A stretch of 47,854 nucleotides of DNA, taken from assembly GCF_029216045.1 (NCBI RefSeq), contig NZ_JAEMVE010000018.1:1-47854 (forward strand), written 5' to 3'. A model generated the notes under the pieces. That model saw only the letters and a program-made list of their open reading frames with translations. It was not told the DNA's origin and made no database searches. Below are positions 26,073-38,789 of the stretch, piece by piece; the first letter of the stretch is position 1; each line of letters begins with the position of its first letter. This stretch comes from Sulfurimonas sp. MAG313 (lineage in GTDB: Bacteria; Campylobacterota; Campylobacteria; Campylobacterales; Sulfurimonadaceae). The translations under genes and the position numbers were made by a program.

Positions 26073-26495
26073 ATGTCGCTTACGAAAGAAACGATTGCTA
26101 TGATTAAACAAAGTAGTGGCCTTATAGAACTAAATGCTAGTAAAATAAGTGAAAACATGTATACACTTTTATTTGATTTATATCCTCAACATATTGAGAT
26201 GTTTGATAATGCTCCTTCTAATCAACATGAATTATTAGCCGAAACTATTTCGCTTTATGCAGTGAATATAGACAATCTTGCCATCTTAAAACCTGTCTTA
26301 GAAAAGATTTCTAGAACGCATGAAAATATGGGTGTACAAGAAAAACATTACGCACATGTTCTTGAAGTGATGCTTTTAGCTTTTAAAAATGTATTAAAAG
26401 ATAAGGCCACTGTGCCATTATTAAAGGCATGGGAAGAAGCGATATTATTTGTTTCTTCTATTCTTATCAAAATGGAAAAAGAGCCTAAGAATTAA
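26073..26495 (+). CDS. Single-domain haemoglobin (flavohaemoglobin-like globin, Cgb type)
   Basis: The 140-aa protein covers one globin fold: IKQSSGLIELNASKISENMY (A/B helices), YPQHIEMFDNA (CD region), and ISRTHENMGVQEKHYAHVLE with the proximal haem ligand His83, then AWEEAILFVSSILIKME (H helix). This is the three-over-three type of bacterial haemoglobin without a reductase domain, as C. jejuni Cgb, which removes nitric oxide. The location beside the nitrate locus fits protection from reactive nitrogen. AGGA lies 7 bases before ATG. The 3' end overlaps the convergent PP2C-kinase gene by 11 bp. Confidence 0.9.
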   Translation: MSLTKETIAMIKQSSGLIELNASKISENMYTLLFDLYPQHIEMFDNAPSNQHELLAETISLYAVNIDNLAILKPVLEKISRTHENMGVQEKHYAHVLEVMLLAFKNVLKDKATVPLLKAWEEAILFVSSILIKMEKEPKN

Positions 26496-28131
26496 AATAG
26501 ATAAAACTTACTACATTAGTAACGAGCAAGATGAAAAAACCTACCTTGTAAAATAAAAGAGGCTCTCGTTCTATAAAAGAGGAATCTTTTCGATAATACG
26601 GCTTTACCTTTTCTGGAGACTTTAATGCATAAAAAAGTTCAGAATAATGGGCATATCGGTCTTCTTCCTTAGTCGCGATACAATGCATAATAATAGACTC
26701 AAACCAATCCGGAATATTTTTATTTAAGCTTGAGGCTAATTTAGCTTGTTTAAACACAGGTGTTTGAAAAGGTTCAATCTCACCATATGGAAATTTCCCA
26801 GTCAAGGCCCAATATAAGGTAACTCCAATAGAAAATATTTCTGTGGTTTCGTTAATAGCTGAACCTAAAAACCTCTCAGGTGCAAGGTAAGAGGGCGTTC
26901 CTGCTCTTGAGTTTACTTCAAAGACTTCAACCACAGAGCCAAAATCAACCATTTTAAAATTAACACCAACCTCACCTTCTTTGTTGTAAACAATAATATT
27001 TTCAGGTTTAATATCTCCATGAACAAGACCTAGATGCAAAAGGTGTGCTTCGGCCTTATGTAAAAACTTTGCAAGAGCAATGGCGGAATCAATGGTTATA
27101 GGACTGTTCTTGAGATATTCAGTAAGGTTAATACCTTCAATAAGTTCCATTAAATAATATCTAGCAGAACGGTCTTCAGGAACCCATGCATCACCAAAGG
27201 CCTTATGTGAAACTTGTTTTGCGTACCAGGCCTCTTTAACAAAGGCTTCTAAGGCAACAGGGTCTTCCTTAGCTATGGCCATTGGAAATTTCATTACAAA
27301 GATTTTATTGTCTTTGGAAACCTTCCAAATACGTCCATGTTCCATCATAGAACTCACTAACTCATATCCATCAAAGGTATCTCCTACCTTAAGCGTTTGA
27401 GGTATGTCTAGGTCAAGGTTTTTAATCGCGTGTATCTCATCAAGTTCTTCAACCCTAAAGATTTGCATGGAAATATCATCTCTTTCATGATCTTTATGCC
27501 CCTTCGCCGCGCTTTGTATAATGAGTTTAGCCCCGAGCCCTTTTACCACTTCTTCTTCTATGTCCTCGTTGGACATTAACGCCGTTAAACCATCACTACA
27601 TAAGACGATGGTGTCACCTTTTTCAATGTTTATGGAACTAATGACAGGCTCAACATGATCAGATAAACCACAGGCTTGAGTAAGTACATGAGAAAGATTA
27701 TCTTCATCCATTATGTGATCTTGTGAAAGTTGGCGCATAGTTTTGTTTTTATCAATTAGATAAATACGTGAGTCACCAAGATTCATCGTATATAAGGTGT
27801 CTCCTTCAATAATAGCCACACAAAGAGTCGTTAAAAGTTCAATTTGTTCATACTGAGTCATAGACTCTTTAAAAAGAAGACGATTTATGTGTTGAGTAAA
27901 GAGGGTAAGACATTGGGTAATATCCCAGTTTTTAGGGCGGGTTTTAAAATGGCTTATAAAAAATTTAACACTTTGCCTCGCGGCAGCTCCACCTTTTCTA
28001 GCAGACCCTACACCATCGCAAAGAACAGCAACAAGAAGCTTATTTTCTAAGACAGCATAGTCACAAGCGTCATCGCCTTTAATACCTTCTGCCTTAGGTA
28101 AAATATATTGAGTAGATTGAAGTTTTAGCAT
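26485..28131 (-). CDS. Bifunctional PP2C-type phosphatase / Ser-Thr protein kinase, membrane-anchored
   Basis: Residues ~8-228 are a PP2C phosphatase: LLVAVLCDGVGSARKGGAAA (metal Asp39), MNLGDSRIYL, VLCSDGLTALM, ERDDISMQIF (metal Asp). Residues ~255-515 are a kinase: lysine in FVMKFPM (281), HGDIKPENIIV (371-381), DFG (396-398), TPSYLAPERF. The glycine loop is degenerate (VSSMMEHGRIWKV), with one of the usual three glycines. A C-terminal membrane helix (VGFFILLVTNVVSFIYF) anchors it. Genes of this architecture lie next to nitrate transporter and assimilatory reductase genes in pseudomonads and other marine proteobacteria (recalled, e.g. PA1782); here it is 20 bp after the transporter. It probably tunes transport or reductase activity; the substrate is unknown. 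Confidence 0.92.
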   Translation of the reverse strand: MLKLQSTQYILPKAEGIKGDDACDYAVLENKLLVAVLCDGVGSARKGGAAARQSVKFFISHFKTRPKNWDITQCLTLFTQHINRLLFKESMTQYEQIELLTTLCVAIIEGDTLYTMNLGDSRIYLIDKNKTMRQLSQDHIMDEDNLSHVLTQACGLSDHVEPVISSINIEKGDTIVLCSDGLTALMSNEDIEEEVVKGLGAKLIIQSAAKGHKDHERDDISMQIFRVEELDEIHAIKNLDLDIPQTLKVGDTFDGYELVSSMMEHGRIWKVSKDNKIFVMKFPMAIAKEDPVALEAFVKEAWYAKQVSHKAFGDAWVPEDRSARYYLMELIEGINLTEYLKNSPITIDSAIALAKFLHKAEAHLLHLGLVHGDIKPENIIVYNKEGEVGVNFKMVDFGSVVEVFEVNSRAGTPSYLAPERFLGSAINETTEIFSIGVTLYWALTGKFPYGEIEPFQTPVFKQAKLASSLNKNIPDWFESIIMHCIATKEEDRYAHYSELFYALKSPEKVKPYYRKDSSFIEREPLLFYKVGFFILLVTNVVSFIYFNS

Positions 28132-28151: not shown

Positions 28152-29432
28152 TTAAATTCTACCACCAGAAGTTGCGCCCCAAGTAGTTCTCCAACGTGTC
28201 TTAACCATAGAAATACCTGCTATCGCAATAAGCGTTACTCCAGCAAATATTAAAAATCCTGCGGAGTAGCCATCAAATGTTGCTTTTGACCAACCAAGGG
28301 TTTTAATAAGCGCAGTTCCACCAAGTCCCCCAGCGGCTCCAATAATACCTACCATTACTCCAATGTCTTTAGCAAAACGCTGAGGTACGAGTTGAAAAAC
28401 GGCTCCATTGGCCATACCTAAGTTTGCCATAGTGATAAAAAACACTAAAATAACAAGAAGAAAAGGAAGGGTAAGGGTTGCATTTAAAACCGTCATAACA
28501 ACGACAATACTAAAAAATATATATAATGATTTAACCCCACCCATTTTATCTGCAATAGCTCCACCAATTGGGCGAAGAATAGTCCCTGCAAAAATACAAA
28601 GTGCTCCAAAGTATCCCGCGATTACCTTGATGTTTTCTTCCGCTAACCAAGATAAGCCAAGTTCAGCCATTTCAGTCGGATACGTGTCCATCAAGTAAAG
28701 TTTTAAAAATACACCAAAGCCAACAAAGCCACCAAACGAGATGGCATAAAAAAGATTAAACCACCAGGTATCTTTGTCTTTAAGAAGTTTCATATAATCT
28801 TTTAATTTTTTAGGATTAACCTTATATACATTTGAAGGAGCATCTTGCGCCATAAAGACATAGGTGAAAAACAAAATCGTAGCTAAACCTGCTTCAAGTA
28901 AAAAAACACTTTGCCATCCATAGAGTTCAGCGATTTTAGGGGCAAAGATAAAGCCCATAACCACACCAAAGTTAGCAGACCCTGCTATACCAAGAACAAG
29001 ACCTTGAAGTTTTGGTGGATACCATTGACCTGCTTGAGGTAAGGCAACCGCGAAAGATGCTCCTGCAAAACCAAGTAGAATAGAAATACCTAAGAGCTGA
29101 TTATAAGTGATGCCTTCTCCTAAAAAGTAGGTGAAAACAAGAGCAAAAATAACAAGAAGTTGAGAAACAAGGGCTGTTTTTTTAGCACCAAACTTATCCA
29201 CACTAAAACCAAGAACAATTCTAAGTAATGCACCTGAAAGTATAGGTAAAGAAAGAAGGGTCGCCTTGTCATTTGAAGACATAATAAAACCATTGGCTGC
29301 AAAAGATTCAACAATTTCTGTAGATAAAGGCCCTAATATAGTCCAAATCATAAAACTCAAATCAAAATAAAAAAAAGCAGCTAGAAGTGTAGGCCAATGA
29401 CCTTCTTCTTTAATCGCTTGTAGTCTTGCCAT
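28152..29432 (-). CDS. narK: Nitrate/nitrite transporter (MFS, NarK/NasA family)
   Basis: This inner-membrane major-facilitator protein of 426 aa has about 12 helices. Family marks are EEGHWPTLLAAFFYFDLSFM and WTILGPLSTEI at the N-terminus, LSGALLRIVLGFSVDKFGAK (substrate-binding Arg in helix 2), GIAGSANFGVVMGFIFAP (nitrate signature 1 region) and GIIGAAGGLGGTAL (signature 2). The start is set at 29432: GGAGA stands 5-6 bases before this ATG, while the earlier in-frame ATG at 29444 has none. The PP2C-kinase gene follows by 20 bp, and the nitrate reductase is divergent, so it most likely imports nitrate for assimilation. Two TATAAT boxes and a palindrome lie upstream. Confidence 0.92.
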   Translation of the reverse strand: MARLQAIKEEGHWPTLLAAFFYFDLSFMIWTILGPLSTEIVESFAANGFIMSSNDKATLLSLPILSGALLRIVLGFSVDKFGAKKTALVSQLLVIFALVFTYFLGEGITYNQLLGISILLGFAGASFAVALPQAGQWYPPKLQGLVLGIAGSANFGVVMGFIFAPKIAELYGWQSVFLLEAGLATILFFTYVFMAQDAPSNVYKVNPKKLKDYMKLLKDKDTWWFNLFYAISFGGFVGFGVFLKLYLMDTYPTEMAELGLSWLAEENIKVIAGYFGALCIFAGTILRPIGGAIADKMGGVKSLYIFFSIVVVMTVLNATLTLPFLLVILVFFITMANLGMANGAVFQLVPQRFAKDIGVMVGIIGAAGGLGGTALIKTLGWSKATFDGYSAGFLIFAGVTLIAIAGISMVKTRWRTTWGATSGGRI

Positions 29433-29813
29433 TAAAATCTCCATATAAAAATAGTTTATATGAGATTATAGACTAATATTTATTATAAGTGTAACTGTGT
29501 TTGATTAAAAAGTAATCAGATAGGTAAAATCATGCTTTCAGTACCTTCTTTAGAGTTGTCTTTTTAAAGGCATCGGCTATTATGATTAAAATATAATCAT
29601 AGTTTCTAAATATTCTCTTTTCTATGACTTGCGTAAAATTGGTATTGTTTTGTGAAATAATTCACTATATATCAACTGTACAAATAAAATATATAAAATA
29701 ATACAATAGTATCGTGTGATATACAAAAAATATGCTTAAAAAATAAGCATGTTGAAATTCATCTTTTATTACCTTTGCGATACAATACTACTTACATAGT
29801 AGAAGGATTAGGT
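29433..29813. promoter_or_regulatory. Divergent control region of the nitrate locus with three matching palindromes
   Basis: This 381-bp gap holds no gene. It carries three inverted repeats of the form TGMTTA-N5-TAAKCA: P1 29502-29518 (spacer AAAAG), P2 29583-29599 (spacer AAATA, arms extended to 8 bp, 29581-29601), and P3 29733-29749 (spacer AAAAA, arms extended to 7 bp). Leftward -10 boxes TATAAT are at 29465-29470 and 29482-29487 (complement). A rightward -10 TACAAT is at 29781-29786. P1's centre (29510) is 40 bp from the first base of the 29470 box, and P3's centre (29741) is 40 bp from 29781. Predicted starts therefore put each dyad near -52. No good -35 hexamers are seen, which suggests activator-dependent promoters. 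Confidence 0.7.
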
Positions 29814-31379
29814 TTGAACGAATCAACACCATTAGAAAATTTTATAAATTATAAGGCTGACACGGGGATGCAGTGTGGGAATTATAGTATCGACCTACCT
29901 GAACTTCAAGACGATGAAAACTATAGATTTCATTTTGATGCAACGGCCTGTGTAGGATGTCGTTGTTGTGAGGTGGCGTGTAATGAACAAAACAATAACC
30001 CTGCGGATATCAAGTGGAGACGTGTAGGTGAGAGTGAAGGGGGAGTTTTTCCTGATGTCACTCAACTTTTTAATTCTATGGCCTGTAATCATTGTATAGA
30101 CCCTGCCTGTCTTATAGGTTGTCCTACCAATTCGTATATTAAAATTGAAGAAACGGGAATTGTTATACATGATGATCCTTCTTGTATAGGTTGTCAATAC
30201 TGTACATGGAACTGCCCTTATGGCGTTCCTACCTTTCATGAAGAACGCTCTATTGTCACAAAATGTCATATGTGTCATGAGCGCCTTGATGTAGGACAAT
30301 CACCTGCTTGTGTTCAAGCCTGTCCTTCAGGTGCTATTGAAATTGAAGTCTTTAAGCCTAAACAGTGGTTAGCAGAAGAGATAGACGAAAAAGGAAATAT
30401 GCCTCATTTAGTGGACGCGAGAGTCACCAACTCAACTACACGTTACACCCTTCCTGAAAATATGCCAGAATTAACCCCAGCAGATGATTATCATCTTAAA
30501 CCTTCTCATTCAGAATTACCTCTAGTTTTTATGACGGTATTAACGCAGGTTTCTTTAGGGGCATTTTTAGCCTTGTTCTTAGGAGATTTACTTTCTTTTA
30601 GTGGTAAGACCTCACCTTCTTGGATAATGGCTCTTCTTGTAATGCTTCCTGCAGCCATTGGTCTTCCTCTTTCTGCCTTGCATCTAGGTCGACCCTTAAA
30701 AGCACTTACGGCGATGATTAATATAAAAACATCTTGGCTAAGTCGAGAAGCCTTAGCTCTTGGTCTATTTACGGGTTTTATGTCTATTAATGTACTTTTA
30801 TACTTCTTAGAAGTGAATGCTTATCTTAGAATCTTTGTAGAAGCTGTAACGCTTGGATTAGGTGCCTTTGGTATATACGCGCAGGGTATGATTTATCAAA
30901 TTGTAGCCAGACCTTCATGGAACCGTGTTACAACGATATTCAAGTTTTTTGGGGTGGGATACATTGGGATGTTTTTAGTAGCTTTTGCTTTGTTAGTGCA
31001 AGGAGAGGTCCAAGCGGCTTCACCTTTATTAACCTTAGCCCTTCTTTTAGCCTTAGCTCAAGCCTTTTTTAGCTACGAAGATAAACGGTCTTTGCATACC
31101 GCGTCTGAGTATGAGTCTGAACTACAAAAGACCTCAAAACTTTATGAGACCTTCTTTATACTTCATCAAAGAGTACGATTAGGAAGCTTTATCTTAGGCT
31201 CACTGATACTGCCAATTTTAGTAACGGTGATTATTGACAGTTCTTTAGCTCCTTTAGTCTTAGGATTTGCTCTAATTTTCATGAGTATATCTGAGTTAAT
31301 GGACAGGTTTTTATTTTACACAACAGTGGTTCCTCTAAATATGGCAGGTGGATTTTTTGTTGGAAAGCAGAGACCCTAA
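29814..31379 (+). CDS. Fe-S electron-transfer protein fused to DmsC-type quinol-oxidising membrane anchor
   Basis: The start is TTG 29814 with GAAGGA 6 bases upstream; an earlier in-frame TTG (29775) lies inside the predicted promoter. Residues ~40-180 are a DmsB/NrfC-like ferredoxin with four cysteine groups (CVGCRCCEVAC, CNHCIDPACLIGC, CIGCQYCTWNC, CHMCHE...CVQAC), enough for four [4Fe-4S] clusters. Residues ~235-515 are a DmsC-like anchor with about eight helices (LPLVFMTVLTQVSLGAFLAL, ALHLGRPLKAL, SWLSREALALG). In dimethyl sulfoxide reductases DmsB and DmsC are separate; here they are one protein. It would pass electrons from menaquinol to the cytoplasmic reductase encoded 44 bp downstream. 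521 aa. Confidence 0.9.
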   Translation: MNESTPLENFINYKADTGMQCGNYSIDLPELQDDENYRFHFDATACVGCRCCEVACNEQNNNPADIKWRRVGESEGGVFPDVTQLFNSMACNHCIDPACLIGCPTNSYIKIEETGIVIHDDPSCIGCQYCTWNCPYGVPTFHEERSIVTKCHMCHERLDVGQSPACVQACPSGAIEIEVFKPKQWLAEEIDEKGNMPHLVDARVTNSTTRYTLPENMPELTPADDYHLKPSHSELPLVFMTVLTQVSLGAFLALFLGDLLSFSGKTSPSWIMALLVMLPAAIGLPLSALHLGRPLKALTAMINIKTSWLSREALALGLFTGFMSINVLLYFLEVNAYLRIFVEAVTLGLGAFGIYAQGMIYQIVARPSWNRVTTIFKFFGVGYIGMFLVAFALLVQGEVQAASPLLTLALLLALAQAFFSYEDKRSLHTASEYESELQKTSKLYETFFILHQRVRLGSFILGSLILPILVTVIIDSSLAPLVLGFALIFMSISELMDRFLFYTTVVPLNMAGGFFVGKQRP

Positions 31380-31423
31380 TGAGATTTGTTGGTAGATGCA
31401 TAATAGGAAATGGTGAATAAATT

Positions 31424-33712
31424 ATGGTAGATAAATTAAAAAACTTTTTAGGTCTAGATATAAAAGAAGAAAAGTATAAACTCTCAGATGATGCTATGTT
31501 TGGTCGCATTTCGGATGCAAAGAAACCAGACAAATGGGTTCTTTCTACCTGTGGTTATTGTGGTGTTGGATGTGGTTTATATATTGGTGTAAAAGATGGA
31601 AAGGCTGTGTATACAAAGGGAAATCCTAAACATGATGTAAACATCGGAACCCTTTGCCCTAAAGGTTTAGCTGAACATCAAATGATTAATGCAGACAACC
31701 GTGTTTTATCTCCTTTGATTAAAGAAAATGGAAAACATGAGAAAAGCACGTGGGAACAGGCCTACCGTAAGGTAAGTAATGAGTTTAAACGTATTAGTAA
31801 AGAACACGGGTCTAAGGCGATTGGCGTACTCTCAACAGGACAACTTTTAACAGAAGAATTTTACGCTCTAGGAAAGTTTGTACAACTGGGTCTTCAAACC
31901 AATAATTATGATGGAAACACCACCCTTTGTATGGCCTCTGCTGTTATGGGATATAAACAGTCCTTAGGCTCAGATGGACCAGTGGGGTGTTATGAAGACT
32001 TTGAAGAAGCGGATGTTATTACTCTTATAGGCGCAAATATCTCAGATAATCATCCTATTTTAAAACTTCATTTAGCAAAAAATAAAAAGAAGCCTCGTAT
32101 TATTGTTATAGACCCTCGTTTTTCTAAAACAGCTCAAATGGCAGATCTATTTGTTCCTATTAAACCTAGAACCGACCTTGCTTTAATTAATGGAATTTGT
32201 CATATTATCTTAGATCAAGGCTGGGAAAACACTCAGTATATTTCTGAAAATACAAATGGCTTTGGGGCCTTAAAAAAACATCTTCAAGATTACCCTCCTC
32301 AAGAAGTCTCAAGTATTACAGGTATAGATGTCAAAGTGCTTTATGATATTGCCCGTTCCATCGCAGGAGCAAAGGCCGCTTTAACGGCTTGGACTATGGG
32401 GGTGAATCAATCGTATATGGGTACAGATACCGTGTCTGCTATTAATAACTTACATCTTATCACCGGTCAAATTGGTCGTCCTGGCGCCGCGCCTTTTTCC
32501 ATTACAGGTCAATGTAATGCAATGGGAACAAGAGAAACAGGCTTTACCTCGTCTCTTCCTGGGTATAGAAATTTTGGAGATGAAAAAGCGGCTAAAGAAT
32601 ATGCAGATATTGCAAGAATTCCTGTGCAATGGGTTCCAACGGAACGTGGTTATAAATATGCAGAGATTATAGACGCGATTGATAGGGGTGAGATTAAGGC
32701 CTTATGGATAGTTGCAACGAACCCACTTGTAAGTTTTGTTAATCAGAAAAAACTACGCTCCGCACTTAAGAAGCTAGATTTACTTGTGGTTCAAGACGCC
32801 TTTTATTCCGATACTGCTGAGATAGCTGATGTGGTGTTTGCAGCAGGTACTTGGGGTGAAAAGGAGGGTGTATATACGAACTCTGAACGTCGATGTAATA
32901 AAGCAAATAAGGCAGTTGAACCAGCAGGTGATTCAAAAAGTGATTTTGATATTATTTTAGAGCTTTCAGGATATTTCCAAAATATCAGAGAAAACCTCTT
33001 TCCTAGGTGGACGAAGCCTGAAGATGCTTTTAATGAATGGAAGAAAGTATCTAAGGGGCAATTATGTGACTATTCAGGTATCACGTATGCTATGTTAGAA
33101 GAAAAAGGTGGGGTGCAGTGGCCTTGTAATGAACAAAACCCTGAAGGAAGTCCTAGACTCTATACCAAAGATATCGCCTTTAGAACAAAGAATGCGAAGG
33201 CAAACTTGCTTTCTTTAGAATGGGTTCCTATGCAAGAATCCTTAAGTAAAGACTTCCCAGTTACTTTAAATACAGGCCGAACAGTAGAGCAATGGCACAC
33301 CCGCACAAAAACAAAAACGATAGAAATATTAAACGACTTAGCTCCAGAAGCCTGGGTAGATATAAACCCTGAAGATGCAAGACGACTTAAGGTAAGTTCA
33401 GGAGATAGACTGTCTTTGTCTTCAAGTAGAGGACGCATTGAAGATGTTATAGTAAGAGTAACTCAAACCGTAGCAGTAGGAAATGTTTTTGTACCCTTTC
33501 ATTTCAACGAACAACTCATAAATACTCTAACAGCGTCTGTGTTTTGTCCAAAATCAGGTGAGCCAAATTACAAACAAACCGCTATTCAACTACATTCACA
33601 AAAGGTTCCAGAAGGTTTAAGCCTAAGTGAAAAAGAAATATCAGGACTTCTAGAACACCAAAAAGTAGAACAAGAATTTTCTTTAAAGAGTTTAAATAAG
33701 GTGGAAGTCTAA
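31424..33712 (+). CDS. nasA: Molybdopterin nitrate reductase, assimilatory type
   Basis: The 762-aa catalytic subunit of the DMSO-reductase family has a bis-MGD cofactor and one [4Fe-4S] cluster: Cys43, Cys46, Cys50 and Cys78 in CGYCGVGCGLYIG...GTLCPKG. Further family sequences: LGLQTNNYDGNTTLCMASAV (Cys in the Mo-ligand region), GANISDNHPI, DPRFSKTA, GQCNAMGTRETG, GRTVEQWHTRTKTK, DARRLKVSSGDRL. It lacks a Tat signal, so it is cytoplasmic, unlike NapA. It lacks the C-terminal [2Fe-2S] domain of some Nas enzymes. Neighbours (transporter, quinol-linked Fe-S/anchor fusion, PP2C-kinase) support nitrate. Formate dehydrogenase is less likely because of gene context. No nitrite reductase is in view. 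Confidence 0.88.
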   Translation: MVDKLKNFLGLDIKEEKYKLSDDAMFGRISDAKKPDKWVLSTCGYCGVGCGLYIGVKDGKAVYTKGNPKHDVNIGTLCPKGLAEHQMINADNRVLSPLIKENGKHEKSTWEQAYRKVSNEFKRISKEHGSKAIGVLSTGQLLTEEFYALGKFVQLGLQTNNYDGNTTLCMASAVMGYKQSLGSDGPVGCYEDFEEADVITLIGANISDNHPILKLHLAKNKKKPRIIVIDPRFSKTAQMADLFVPIKPRTDLALINGICHIILDQGWENTQYISENTNGFGALKKHLQDYPPQEVSSITGIDVKVLYDIARSIAGAKAALTAWTMGVNQSYMGTDTVSAINNLHLITGQIGRPGAAPFSITGQCNAMGTRETGFTSSLPGYRNFGDEKAAKEYADIARIPVQWVPTERGYKYAEIIDAIDRGEIKALWIVATNPLVSFVNQKKLRSALKKLDLLVVQDAFYSDTAEIADVVFAAGTWGEKEGVYTNSERRCNKANKAVEPAGDSKSDFDIILELSGYFQNIRENLFPRWTKPEDAFNEWKKVSKGQLCDYSGITYAMLEEKGGVQWPCNEQNPEGSPRLYTKDIAFRTKNAKANLLSLEWVPMQESLSKDFPVTLNTGRTVEQWHTRTKTKTIEILNDLAPEAWVDINPEDARRLKVSSGDRLSLSSSRGRIEDVIVRVTQTVAVGNVFVPFHFNEQLINTLTASVFCPKSGEPNYKQTAIQLHSQKVPEGLSLSEKEISGLLEHQKVEQEFSLKSLNKVEV

Positions 33713-34847: not shown

Positions 34848-36812
34848 ATGGCATCACTCTTTTCATGGTTTAGCTCAAAACTCAAAAATCAAGAACCAAC
34901 CGCGTCGATTACGGCCTCAATGGAAAAAGACGGATTTGTTTCAAAAGAGCTTTTTTATGAGATTTTAGACTTAGAAACGAATGCTATTTTATTTTTTACA
35001 AAAGATGAAGGTTGGATAGGGGCAAATAAAGCCTTTTTTAACAGATTTGACTTTGATAATATCGCGGACTTTCGAAACAAACACGAAAGTATTCGTGAAC
35101 TCTTTATTGAAGAAAGCGAAGAAGTATTTACCGAATATGACAAGTCCTGGTTGGATTATATCCGTATCCATAAAGAAAATGGTTACCGAGTTGTTCTCAT
35201 TGATAAAGATGAGATGGAAATACCCTGTAGAACGAAGGCTCGAAAGATTCGTCAAGCAGGAAAAGACTTATATGTTTTAGAACTTGAAGATATTTCAGAG
35301 TTAGAAGAAGCACGATATAAAACCGAAGAAGTTGAGCGTTTAAAAAGCAAGTTCTTATCTAATATAGGACATGAATTTAGAACACCTATGAATGGAATCT
35401 TAGGTTTTATAGAGTTGATGGAAAAAAACAATGCAGACCATCAGCAAAGTGAATATCTTCAAATGATTAATATATCAGCGCGTAATCTTATGTCAAACAT
35501 TGAGTCTCTTTTAGACTTGGCTCAAATGCAAGGGGGACGTTTAAAGCTTAATGAGGCTGAATTTAATCCTATCGCCGAAATGGAAGAATTAGCAAAACTA
35601 CACGCTGTTGAAGGACGAAATAAAGGCATACATACATATTTCTACATAGATCCTAAGCTTCCTCAATATATGACAGGCGATCTTAGAAAACTAAAACAAA
35701 TTTTAAATAATCTTATAAATAATGCTTTGAAGTTCACCAAGCGCGGTGGAAAAGTTATGGTAGAAATCAAGCTTGTCCACCGAAATAATGATGGTACGTG
35801 TACTATTGGATTTGGTGTTAAAGATACAGGTAAGGGTATTTTAAAAGAACACTTGGCTCTGATTACTGAGCCTTTTGTAGCGGGAGATCAAGCAGATAAT
35901 CGTTTAGGTGTTGGACTGAGCCTTTCACATGGGCTCATTAAAATGATGGGTGGAGATTTAAGAATTCAGTCAGAAGTTGAAAAAGGGTCCTCCTTTAGCT
36001 TCGCCTTAAGATTTGCATGTTCGGATGCTCAATCTTTTCAAGTGGTCCAAAACTGTACGGCTAAGGTTGTTTTACTCGATGAAAGTAGAGTTGAAGATGC
36101 CAATCAACTGACTATGTACCTACGTTCTTTTTCTATGAATGTCGTCAAAGTTAATCAAATTGATGATAAAATTTATCAAGAAACAGATTTGGTTTATTTA
36201 GTAGCTTCCCAAGATAAGCCAGGATGGAGGCTAAGCCTTTCAAGTTTGCAGAAAAAAGGCAAAACTATCTTAGTGATTAACCCAGGAGAACAGGTTCAAA
36301 CTAAGATGGCTCATGTGATTGACCATACCTTTGTAAAGCCGATGTTGCCTTCAAAAATTGCTAATCACCTTGCTAAAATATTACGTTTACCAAAGTCATC
36401 TCCATCTCTTCAAGAAACACAAGATCATGATGTAGAGCTAAAGGCATTAGTAGTTGAAGATAATCTAATTAATCAACGACTTATTAAAATCTTATTACAA
36501 GAATATAATTTAAAGGTCAGCACAGCAGGAGATGGAGAAGAAGCCGTAAACTTATGTGTTAATAATGAATACAATATCGTATTTATGGATATCGACATGC
36601 CTGTAAAAGATGGAATCTTAGCGACTCAAGAGATTAAGCAACAACGAAATCCAAGTATGCCACATATGCCAATTGTTGCCTTAACGGCCCTAGCTATGGA
36701 AGGCGACAGAGAACATATCTTAGAAGAGGGCTTGGATGATTATTTATCAAAGCCTTTAACACGAGAAAAATTAGAATATGTTTTGCATAAACATTTGCGT
36801 ATAAATGTATAA
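34848..36812 (+). CDS. Hybrid sensor histidine kinase/response regulator (paralogue 1)
   Basis: This 654-aa cytoplasmic protein has no membrane helices. Order: PAS-like sensor (~35-150, TNAILFFTKDEGWIGANKAF), a short coiled helix, HisKA with His175 (GHEFRTPMNGILGF), HATPase_c (NNLINNALKFTKRGG, KDTGKGI, GVGLSLSHGLIKMMGG), a degenerate receiver (~403-510; keeps HTFVKPML but has no phospho-Asp), and a real receiver (~533-650) with Asp581 in FMDIDMPVKDG and Lys in LSKPL. The next gene has the same layout, so they arose by duplication. The final output protein is unknown; signal would pass by phosphorelay. AAGGA lies 7 bases before ATG. Confidence 0.93.
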   Translation: MASLFSWFSSKLKNQEPTASITASMEKDGFVSKELFYEILDLETNAILFFTKDEGWIGANKAFFNRFDFDNIADFRNKHESIRELFIEESEEVFTEYDKSWLDYIRIHKENGYRVVLIDKDEMEIPCRTKARKIRQAGKDLYVLELEDISELEEARYKTEEVERLKSKFLSNIGHEFRTPMNGILGFIELMEKNNADHQQSEYLQMINISARNLMSNIESLLDLAQMQGGRLKLNEAEFNPIAEMEELAKLHAVEGRNKGIHTYFYIDPKLPQYMTGDLRKLKQILNNLINNALKFTKRGGKVMVEIKLVHRNNDGTCTIGFGVKDTGKGILKEHLALITEPFVAGDQADNRLGVGLSLSHGLIKMMGGDLRIQSEVEKGSSFSFALRFACSDAQSFQVVQNCTAKVVLLDESRVEDANQLTMYLRSFSMNVVKVNQIDDKIYQETDLVYLVASQDKPGWRLSLSSLQKKGKTILVINPGEQVQTKMAHVIDHTFVKPMLPSKIANHLAKILRLPKSSPSLQETQDHDVELKALVVEDNLINQRLIKILLQEYNLKVSTAGDGEEAVNLCVNNEYNIVFMDIDMPVKDGILATQEIKQQRNPSMPHMPIVALTALAMEGDREHILEEGLDDYLSKPLTREKLEYVLHKHLRINV

Positions 36813-36842
36813 AGATGTTTAAGATGAATTCAGGGATTGTGT

Positions 36843-38789
36843 ATGCATGAGCTAAAAACACACTTACCTCAAAGTGTGACAAACTTTACTGAAGAGATTT
36901 TGGAACTTGAAAGTGCTATTGTTTTAGTCATAGATCGAAAGGTTGGGGTTGTAGGGGCAAATTCTTCTTTTGCAACCTGTTTGCCTTTTAAGCACTTAAA
37001 AGACTTTTCTAAAAAACATAGAGATATTTCAGAACTATTTATCCCGACACAGGGTACTTTAAGTGCGCATAAACCTTTTGCTTGGCTCTTTGAAGTTTTG
37101 CGCGATGCACGTAAAACGCACAAGGTTAAAATGCTTGGAGAAGATGGAAAAAAACATCTTTTTGAAGTTAAGGTAAAAGAGGTAACAGCAGAGGGTAAAA
37201 ACCTTTTTATTGCTCAGTTTGATGATGTTTCAGCCTTTGAAAAAGCCAAACGTGCTCAAAAATATTTCGAGGAATTTAAACAAAAATTCTTAACCTCTAT
37301 GTCCCATGAATTTAGAACACCTATGAATGGAATTATCGGTTTTGTTGAGCTTTTAGAACGTACAGATACTAACCGTATTCAAAAAGAGTATGTAAACTTA
37401 ATTTCTTATTCCGCCCAAACAATGATGCATAATGTTGAAAACCTTTTAGAGTTGGCTCAAATAGAAAGTGGCCAAATCCATTTGAACGAACAACCTACCA
37501 ACTTAATTTCATTAATGGAAGCTTTTTCTACTGAATTTTATGATGAAGCCATAGCTAAAAACTTGCAACTAATGTTTTTTATTGATCCCTTGCTCCCACA
37601 AGAAGTAATAGCAGATCAAAATAAGATTAAAAAAGTATTAGCAAATCTAGTTAAAAATTCTATCAAATATACCAATGAAAAAGGGCAGGTGTATGTTGAA
37701 ATACGCGCTAATAGTTCAGAAGTAAAAGGGACAATATCGGTAGAATACGCGGTAACAGATACCGGTGTTGGTATTGATCATAACAGACTTTCTACTATTA
37801 TCCGTCCTTTTGCCTCGGCTAAAGATAACCAGTCTCAAGGTAAAGATGGTTTAGGAGTTGGCCTTTCGGTTTGTTACAAATTAACTGAGATGATGCAGTC
37901 TAAGTTAAAGGTTGCAACTGAGGTTGGAAAGGGCTCTCGTTTTAGTTTTTCAGTGATACATAAAACAAAACATGAGCCATCTTTTGAATTTGTTAAAGGG
38001 TCTAGAGTTGCTATTTGGGCGGAAGACCATTACACTATTTTGTATTCGAAACTTTTAAAAGAATATTTAAAACATTTTGCTATTGATGTGGTGGAAATTG
38101 ATGGACTTGTAAATAAAGAGCTGAAAAATTGTGATGCTGTCTTTATAGTGACAGACCACCTTTCTTCTTCTCGAGTCAAGTCTATAAAAGCGCATTATAA
38201 AAACCTTCAAATAGTACCGGTGATAAATACAAGTTTTGAAAGAAAATTTTCTAGTATTAATGCTGAAGTGTCTGATATCTTAGTGAAGCCACTGCTTCCA
38301 AACAAGATTTATGAAACACTTAATGTAATATGGAAAAAGGTACCGGCTGAGTTGTTACGAAAGGTTCAGCTTAAACCTCAAAAACAAAAAAAACCATTGT
38401 TAAATTTAACGGTTTTAGTTGTAGAAGATAACCCAATCAATCTTAAATTAATAGAAACCCTTTTATCCCAATATAAACTAAGGGTGAAAACGGTGGTTAA
38501 TGGTAAAGAGGCCGTAGATGTTTTTGATAGAAAAGAAGAATTTGATTTGGTGTTCATGGATATTGATATGCCAATAATGGATGGAATTACCGCAACACGT
38601 ATGATAAAAGAGATAGAAAAAAGAGACAATAGAGTGCATACACCAATTATTGCCTTAACCGCCCATGGACTCTCAGGTGATAGAGAAAGAATTATAGGTG
38701 CAGGACTTGATGATCACTTTCCAAAACCACTAGACCGTGCAAAATTAGAACAAGTTTTGAACCAATACTTAGATTTAGAGATTAACTAA
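36843..38789 (+). CDS. Hybrid sensor histidine kinase/response regulator (paralogue 2)
   Basis: The start is ATG 36843, with AGGGA 6 bases before it; an in-frame TTG at 36837 directly abuts that site and is unlikely. The 648-aa protein has the same architecture as its neighbour: PAS-like region (AIVLVIDRKVGVVGANSSFA), HisKA (MSHEFRTPMNGIIGFVELLE), HATPase (NLVKNSIKYTNEKGQ, TDTGVGI, GLGVGLSVCYKLTEMM), a degenerate receiver with ...ILVKPLLPNKIYE, and a C-terminal receiver (VVEDNPINLKLIETLLSQYK, FMDIDMPIMDG). The sensor parts are more diverged than the kinase cores. It lies 30 bp after paralogue 1, so the two are probably cotranscribed. Confidence 0.93.
   Translation: MHELKTHLPQSVTNFTEEILELESAIVLVIDRKVGVVGANSSFATCLPFKHLKDFSKKHRDISELFIPTQGTLSAHKPFAWLFEVLRDARKTHKVKMLGEDGKKHLFEVKVKEVTAEGKNLFIAQFDDVSAFEKAKRAQKYFEEFKQKFLTSMSHEFRTPMNGIIGFVELLERTDTNRIQKEYVNLISYSAQTMMHNVENLLELAQIESGQIHLNEQPTNLISLMEAFSTEFYDEAIAKNLQLMFFIDPLLPQEVIADQNKIKKVLANLVKNSIKYTNEKGQVYVEIRANSSEVKGTISVEYAVTDTGVGIDHNRLSTIIRPFASAKDNQSQGKDGLGVGLSVCYKLTEMMQSKLKVATEVGKGSRFSFSVIHKTKHEPSFEFVKGSRVAIWAEDHYTILYSKLLKEYLKHFAIDVVEIDGLVNKELKNCDAVFIVTDHLSSSRVKSIKAHYKNLQIVPVINTSFERKFSSINAEVSDILVKPLLPNKIYETLNVIWKKVPAELLRKVQLKPQKQKKPLLNLTVLVVEDNPINLKLIETLLSQYKLRVKTVVNGKEAVDVFDRKEEFDLVFMDIDMPIMDGITATRMIKEIEKRDNRVHTPIIALTAHGLSGDRERIIGAGLDDHFPKPLDRAKLEQVLNQYLDLEIN

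Follow-up and report, generated by a model that had tools for sequence, protein, structure and literature searches.

The nitrate locus of Sulfurimonas sp. MAG313 contains three matching 17-bp palindromes, termed P1, P2 and P3, in the region between a narK-type transporter gene and a divergently oriented nitrate-reductase operon (Table 1). This arrangement raises the questions of which regulator reads the sites, whether they serve nitrate use specifically, and what the third site contributes to a region with two promoters. The locus lies in a stretch of 47,854 nucleotides which was analyzed as a whole and is termed the window here.

Palindromes of the Nitrate Locus

The narK gene has its probable start at position 29432, at an ATG after GGAG. 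On the other side of the intergenic region, the gene for the DmsB-DmsC fusion is conserved in relatives, often with a box upstream. The best NCBIfam match of the molybdopterin catalytic subunit encoded next is TIGR01591 (formate dehydrogenase alpha; 4.7e-174), and NF047855 (NasC) is matched at 1.5e-149, both under the cut-offs. The combination of a NasA/NasC-like subunit with a DmsB-DmsC anchor (29814-33712, plus strand) suggests a quinol-linked assimilatory enzyme, as judged from the domains of the predicted proteins.

The three palindromes follow the pattern TG[AC]TTA-N5-TAA[GT]CA, termed the box below (core form, TGATTA-N5-TAATCA). The sequences and positions originally predicted for them are exact, and their number is far beyond chance: the window holds three exact matches where 0.05 would be expected, and not one of its 100 dinucleotide shuffles attains three. 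When up to two mismatches are allowed, the window shows no excess (18 found against 16.8 expected); the signal is thus confined to exact sites, and only these were used. The latter result and the AT-rich composition of the window (35% GC) would suit palindromes that are chance matches or structural AT-rich repeats, but this explanation is already refuted by the shuffles, by the low counts of a reversed-pattern control in family and order genomes, and by the fixed spacing to -10 elements (see below).

Table 1. Features of the nitrate locus and genes for the candidate regulatory proteins (window positions unless a contig is named)
Feature	Position	Strand	Remarks
narK-type nitrate/nitrite MFS transporter	28152..29444	minus	TIGR00886 2.2e-66 (under curated cut-off), PF07690
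-10 TATAAT, narK promoter	29465..29470	minus	start predicted at ~29457-29458 from aligned promoter set
P1 box TGATTAAAAAGTAATCA	29502-29518		exact match; centre 29510; 40 bp from narK -10
P2 box TGATTAAAATATAATCA	29583-29599		exact match; no -10 at 40/41 bp
P3 box TGCTTAAAAAATAAGCA, TGC...GCA variant	29733-29749		exact match; centre 29741; 40 bp from reductase -10
-10 TACAAT, nitrate-reductase operon	29781-29786	plus	start predicted at ~29793-29794 from aligned promoter set
DmsB-DmsC fusion electron-transfer/anchor subunit of nitrate reductase	29814..31379	plus	PF13247, PF04976; probable TTG start 29814
Molybdopterin catalytic subunit, NasA/NasC-like	31424..33712	plus	PF00384, PF01568, PF04879
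Candidate NtrC-like regulator, own copy	G000:C218:7470-8195	minus	profile search, single match; contig outside window
PAS-like gene, own genome	C221:4673-5341 (L350:4667-5350)		directly after rpoD

The Box at Nitrogen-Assimilation Genes

The 2.54-Mb genome of strain MAG313 contains five exact box sites against none for the reversed pattern. The sole intergenic site outside P1-P3 lies upstream of glnA, with a TATACT -10 element at 40 bp from the box centre. The fifth site, which is inside the rplM coding region and has a G/C-containing spacer, was rejected as a chance match, and two sites with one mismatch (L360 and L361) were set aside as coding or as lying between genes without a visible nitrogen link. 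Upstream of the best amtB copy, only a degenerate box with three mismatches is present (TGATGAAAATTTACACA; TATACT about 39 bp away by hand count), where amtB of a genome of the same genus (G002) has an exact box; upstream of the second amtB, no box was seen by inspection.

The box is conserved in relatives. The core form occurs 122 times in 61 family genomes, compared with nine times for the control, and 49 of the 61 contain at least one site; with an A/T spacer, it occurs 230 times in 248 order genomes (control, seven), of which 115 contain at least one site. The best 80 of 334 loci in a scan for related loci include records labelled Sulfurimonas, Sulfuricurvum, Sulfurovum and Arcobacter. Many of the sites inspected precede glnA, amtB, glnK, narK, nas/nir or nrtABC, and others precede genes for a focA-like (formate/nitrite-type) channel, once with a cyanase-like gene, or porin-like genes; target genes were named by eye from sequence, except for proteins scanned by Pfam. 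Sites without a visible nitrogen link also occur (e.g., L066, L071, L072, L079, L165, L166, L167, L170, L181 and L219), and those in L165, L166, L170 and L181 fall in coding sequence.

Conserved sites at other nitrogen genes, which the original prediction had named as support, are thus found. The assignment of the box to the nitrate locus stands in so far as the box is present at narK and nas genes, but not as a nitrate-specific role, as the same box is present at glnA and amtB-glnK. The box marks nitrogen-assimilation promoters in many families of Campylobacterales, where it tends to one fixed place, and it is very likely a nitrogen-regulon site of general use in nitrogen assimilation. None of the consensus sequences of FNR, NarL and NssR, as far as they are known to us, fits the box by eye.

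Fixed Distance Between the Box and the -10 Element

Promoter geometry was analyzed in 206 distinct site contexts (176 of the TGMTTA form and 30 of a TGTATA form described below), which give 280 site-to-gene directions including coding sites and wrong-side directions. With a requirement of at least five of six matches to TATAAT and with offsets counted from the box centre, a -10 element is located at offset 40 in 34% and at offset 41 in 16% of the directions (together 140 of 280), whereas other offsets from 15 to 79 have a mean of 2.6% and a maximum of 6.1%; the remaining 140 directions have no -10 at 40/41, coding and wrong-side ones being counted in. Removal of similar segments leaves 129 of 259 directions with a -10 at 40/41 (other offsets, mean 2.6% and maximum 6.2%), and the TGTATA form alone gives 21 of 36 (other offsets, mean 3.0% and maximum 16.7%). 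The identical spacing originally noted for the narK and reductase promoters, which was measured as 40 bp at both, is the prevailing rule of the regulon, and this rule lets nitrogen promoters be read from sequence.

The 140 aligned promoters, which were chosen by their -10 elements and whose gene labels are rough patterns and partly wrong, have a TATAAT-like sequence at -12 to -7, G at -14 (0.52, 0.44) and A at about +1 (0.69, 0.60). In this set, a -35 element is absent and a sigma54 -24 GG/-12 GC element is not found, with little G at -24 (0.07, 0.09). The box occupies -60 to -44 with its centre at about -52, clear of the -10 element and the start. The promoters are thus of the sigma70 type, with an extended -10 and no -35 element, and carry the box at about -52. 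The start positions predicted in the window (Table 1) are derived from this aligned set.

Such fixed spacing fits contact with RNA polymerase; an operator typically has no set position and overlaps with the promoter. The single preferred offset of the box, its separation from the -10 element and the start, and the lack of a -35 element in its promoters make it quite improbable that the box is a site from which an NtrC-like protein (see below) represses when nitrogen is in excess, even though palindromes near promoters can be operators and NtrC proteins can also repress (excerpts of PMC10274813 and PMC3870243). By contrast, the fixed 40-bp spacing and the boxes at other nitrogen genes agree with the original proposal of one regulator, most likely an activator, serving both directions.

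Origin of P2 and Distances Between Boxes

Neither side of P2 has a -10 element at 40 or 41 bp. In three genomes of the same genus (G001, G002 and G003), the box on the narK side aligns with P2 rather than with P1, and among the four genomes compared, P1 lies within extra sequence of about 80 bp unique to strain MAG313. The distance from P2 to P3 is 150 bp, and that between the two boxes present in G002 and in G003 is 151 bp; a site corresponding to P3 is present in L007 and L085. P2 is probably the ancestral narK box, parted from narK by the P1-carrying extra sequence, an origin that is kept conditional here because the intergenic alignment is weak.

The centres of P1 and P3 are 231 bp apart. 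This distance, together with the presence of three boxes in one intergenic region, was originally taken to point to a dimeric regulator of the nitrate locus for which P1 and P3 are purposely placed 22 helical turns apart and P2 may loop the DNA or repress. Box pairs in other loci are separated by 35, 45, 151 or 76 to 78 bp; because these distances vary, the 231 bp between P1 and P3 seem incidental, and the figure of 22 turns loses its weight. As the same box is present at glnA and amtB-glnK, and as G002 and G003 manage with two boxes of which the narK-side one aligns with P2, a looping or repressing P2 is not upheld, and we regard the whole arrangement as very improbable.

A Short NtrC-Like Protein as the Candidate Regulator

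In family f6 (L209, L211, L220 and L224), a small gene pair adjoins amtB-glnK and boxes, and one gene of the pair encodes a protein of about 244 residues that combines a Fis-type HTH with the remnant of an AAA+ domain. With a profile of this NtrC-like protein, 56 of 61 family genomes, among them all 43 of the best quality, yield a single match each (that of G003 being a fragment); of the 248 order genomes, 181 have a match. The regulator, which had been predicted to lie outside the window, thus has its best candidate on contig C218 (Table 1).

The gene is located between slyD-like and fabD-like genes in the family members inspected, strain MAG313 included; in G002, this operon is placed behind the nas operon, and slyD is all that separates nas from the NtrC-like gene (L290 and L085). 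In L209 and L211, the gene lies beside amtB-glnK with boxes to either side, in L220 and L224 with boxes to one side, and it adjoins amtB-glnK also in L308. In family f7, boxes surround the genes for the NtrC-like protein and a partner protein (see below), one being exact and two having one mismatch. In family f9, the gene is flanked by a cache-like gene and by that for GlnD, and amtB-glnK copies are adjacent; GlnD was recognized in L305 (PF08335, 2.6e-26), and GlnD-sized genes are present in L297 and L298. In these three f9 loci, a GlnD-type PII uridylyltransferase gene, judged by size and position in L297 and L298, stands by the NtrC-like gene and near two amtB-glnK pairs. The 285-residue membrane/cache-like protein encoded beside the NtrC-like gene in some families was rejected as its sensor: its profile matches 215 of 248 genomes, including those without the NtrC-like protein, and is thus not specific to it.

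HTH_8 (PF02954; cut-off 22 bits) is matched by the copy of strain MAG313 (22.5) and those of L085 (25.5), L224 (31.0), L220 (28.8) and L300 (25.9), and scores under the cut-off in L209 (19.6) and L190 (14.2). PF00158 exceeds its cut-off in L300 only (22.7 versus 20.2) and is weak or absent in the other copies scanned. All of 71 distinct sequences, a few of which come from one genome, contain an NR[NIV]TL helix and a GxxxxG[KR] form of Walker A, the strict GxxxxGK[ST] form being found in 10 and a DE-type Walker B pattern in five. A GAFTGA loop, looser forms included, is present in none of the 71, and no match to the Response_reg receiver domain was found in the seven copies scanned (L224, L209, L220, L190, L085, L300 and that of strain MAG313).

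Among solved structures, the best sequence matches of the candidate HTH are Fis (Fis-like profile match, 5e-7) and the C-terminal domain of ZraR (7.8e-5). ZraR is a sigma54 activator, and we know of no nitrogen role for either protein. An AlphaFold model of middling confidence (pLDDT 68.6) has fold matches to NtrX, PspF and NtrC1 at 1.7e-6 to 5.3e-6, with TM-scores of 0.4-0.5. These profile and model matches would place the NtrC-like protein among the descendants of enhancer-binding proteins.

Co-occurrence With the Box and a Box Switch in One Family

Among the 248 order genomes, 108 have both the NtrC-like protein and the core box, 73 the protein only, seven the box only and 60 neither, and all 56 genomes with at least two core boxes carry the protein; these counts are inflated by relatedness, and the NtrC-like family is the only regulator family profiled. 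The core box is absent in 73 of the 181 carriers of the protein, and neither box form is found in 64 (the second form was searched for in 32 genomes); strict patterns, degenerate sites or further drift of the box could explain these carriers. The seven genomes with the box only have one core site each and four of them are at most 71% complete; in G137, which also lacks the protein and is 92% complete, the single box lies directly before glnA.

Family f9 provides a stronger test than the order-wide counts. In this family, which we take to be Arcobacter-like, the core box is nearly absent (three sites in 21 genomes), and no nitrogen-assimilation promoter was seen at the three core-box loci inspected (L165-L167). 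Instead, f9 amtB is preceded by TGTATA-N5-TATACA. The form TGTATA-W5-TATACA has 65 sites in the 21 f9 genomes against six for the control, and it is found in 12 of 14 carriers of the NtrC-like protein and in none of seven non-carriers, carriers and non-carriers occurring even within one genus (g26). The two carriers without it are G161, whose match to the protein is weak (E 6e-10), and G233. In comparison genomes of other families, one of 11 has a match. At least 10 of 16 f9 loci inspected by eye precede glnA, amtB, gltB-like or NifA-like genes. In two f9 loci (L314 and L316), a TGTATA-type box precedes a gene that by eye resembles that for an ethanolamine ammonia-lyase subunit and may be one more target in nitrogen scavenging.

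The variable residue of the recognition helix is N in 62, V in six and I in three of the 71 sequences. The f9 helix is NRITL, whereas f16 has NRVTL and yet a TGATTA box; the helix residue therefore does not simply explain the box switch. Family f14, presumably Campylobacter-like as f11 is Helicobacter-like, has no match to the NtrC-like protein in 21 genomes and no boxes. This is in line with a 2026 paper, which states that reference strains of C. jejuni lack PII and NtrBC and calls the mechanism of their glutamine response unidentified (PMC12795558).

The box might instead be a nitrogen-regulon site bound by another regulator (e.g., of the Lrp/AsnC, MerR/TnrA-like or CRP/FNR type), with the NtrC-like protein merely linked or co-inherited. 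TnrA of Bacillus subtilis belongs to the MerR family, unlike the NtrC-like candidate, and TnrA-activated promoters carry the TnrA box at about -50. The TnrA box, TGTNANAWWWTNTNACA, is likewise a 17-bp interrupted palindrome with TG...CA ends (PMC4475385, excerpt), there is no simple match between helix residue and box, and the link between protein and box is drawn from sequence with a single family profiled. However, the box departs from the TnrA consensus at position 3, which is A or C here and T in TnrA. Moreover, the NtrC-like protein co-occurs with the box as a single copy, its gene has amtB-glnK, glnD, nas and boxes as neighbors, and it is followed by the box switch within f9; another binder is thus unlikely.

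A PAS-Like Partner Protein

A PAS-like protein of about 230 residues is encoded next to the NtrC-like protein in the members of f6, f7 and f16 inspected. Its profile matches 178 of 248 genomes; both proteins are present in 175, the NtrC-like protein only in six, the PAS-like protein only in three and neither in 64, so that 175 of the 184 genomes with either one hold both. In five cases inspected in which the two genes are unlinked (strain MAG313, G212, G133, G020 and G053), the PAS-like gene directly follows rpoD, which was identified by Pfam sigma70 regions in the first three and by sequence likeness in G020 and G053.

The PAS domain itself is weakly matched (best E 0.0008, under the cut-off), and Pfam scans gave no match to HATPase. 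Comparison with the kinases of the window yielded only a 30-column match (E 0.12), a PDB sequence search yielded nothing convincing, and the AlphaFold model was unusable (pLDDT 33.6). That the PAS-like protein is a pseudo-NtrB is a guess.

Comparison With Known Systems and a Proposed Mechanism

Taken on sequence evidence, P1-P3 are with good probability the sites of a general nitrogen-assimilation activator of Campylobacterales, read by the NtrC-like protein of about 240 residues; the reader of the box is likely a reduced, NtrC-like sigma70 activator. This candidate binder would combine an NtrC-type Fis HTH with a degenerate AAA+ remnant. With no receiver, no GAFTGA loop and, in most members, an abnormal Walker A Ser/Thr position and Walker B, it would be expected to activate RNA polymerase with sigma70 through direct contact, and not sigma54 through ATP hydrolysis. 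Under nitrogen shortage, narK would be switched on from P1 and the reductase operon from P3; P2 would be an auxiliary site or what is left of the ancestral narK box. PII/GlnK and/or the PAS-like protein encoded next to rpoD would probably supply the signal.

The sigma54-dependent NtrB/NtrC system of enterics shares with this candidate system a Fis-type HTH, AAA+ descent, a 17-bp TG...CA palindrome and nitrogen-assimilation targets. It differs in that the candidate lacks the receiver and GAFTGA and has degenerate ATPase motifs, that the promoters are of the sigma70 type with an extended -10 and have the box at about -52, and that the PAS-like partner has no recognizable kinase core. The E. coli NtrC box, TGCACCAnnnTGGTGCA, is a 17-bp TGC...GCA palindrome (PMC8743547, excerpt); the present box shares its length and TG...CA ends, and P3 even TGC...GCA, but the box has inner TTA/TAA instead of ACC/GGT.

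NtrC of Rhodobacter capsulatus binds tandem sites far upstream. NtrC proteins without GAFTGA are reported to regulate sigma70 promoters in this species and in Caulobacter; phosphorylation of the receiver matters for activation, and use of ATP is reported for Caulobacter (PMC10274813, excerpt). The present candidate also lacks GAFTGA, but its receiver is gone and its ATPase motifs are degenerate. Among the titles and abstract openings listed, with few subscription journals covered, no paper was found on this NtrC-like regulator, and no regulator was found for free-living relatives of C. jejuni.

A more tentative proposal, to which we give somewhat less than an even chance, is that an Ntr system has here been stripped of both phosphorylation and sigma54. 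A receiver-less, ATPase-degenerate NtrC remnant would recruit sigma70 polymerase from the -52 box, and a PAS pseudo-NtrB would relay the PII/GlnK signal by contact; the box would have drifted from TGATTA to TGTATA in one family with the regulon kept, and Campylobacter- and Helicobacter-like lineages would be without regulator, partner and box. The NtrC-like protein offers itself as a candidate global regulator of nitrogen metabolism in Campylobacterales, and it would also illustrate how an enhancer-binding protein can shrink to a plain sigma70 activator.

Neighboring Genes of the Nitrate Locus

Several genes near the nitrate locus are recorded as observations in their own right. Directly downstream of narK, a gene for a PP2C phosphatase-Ser/Thr kinase fusion is recognized by Pfam (26485-28131, minus strand), and genes resembling it by eye adjoin narK in L073, L209, L212, L218 and L225. 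A small single-domain globin gene (26073-26495, plus strand; PF00042), the product of which resembles the globin part of flavohemoproteins, also lies nearby. Two adjacent hybrid sensor kinases, for which no link to the boxes was seen, are encoded at 34848-38789 (plus strand); the reductase genes and an endonuclease III gene lie upstream of them.
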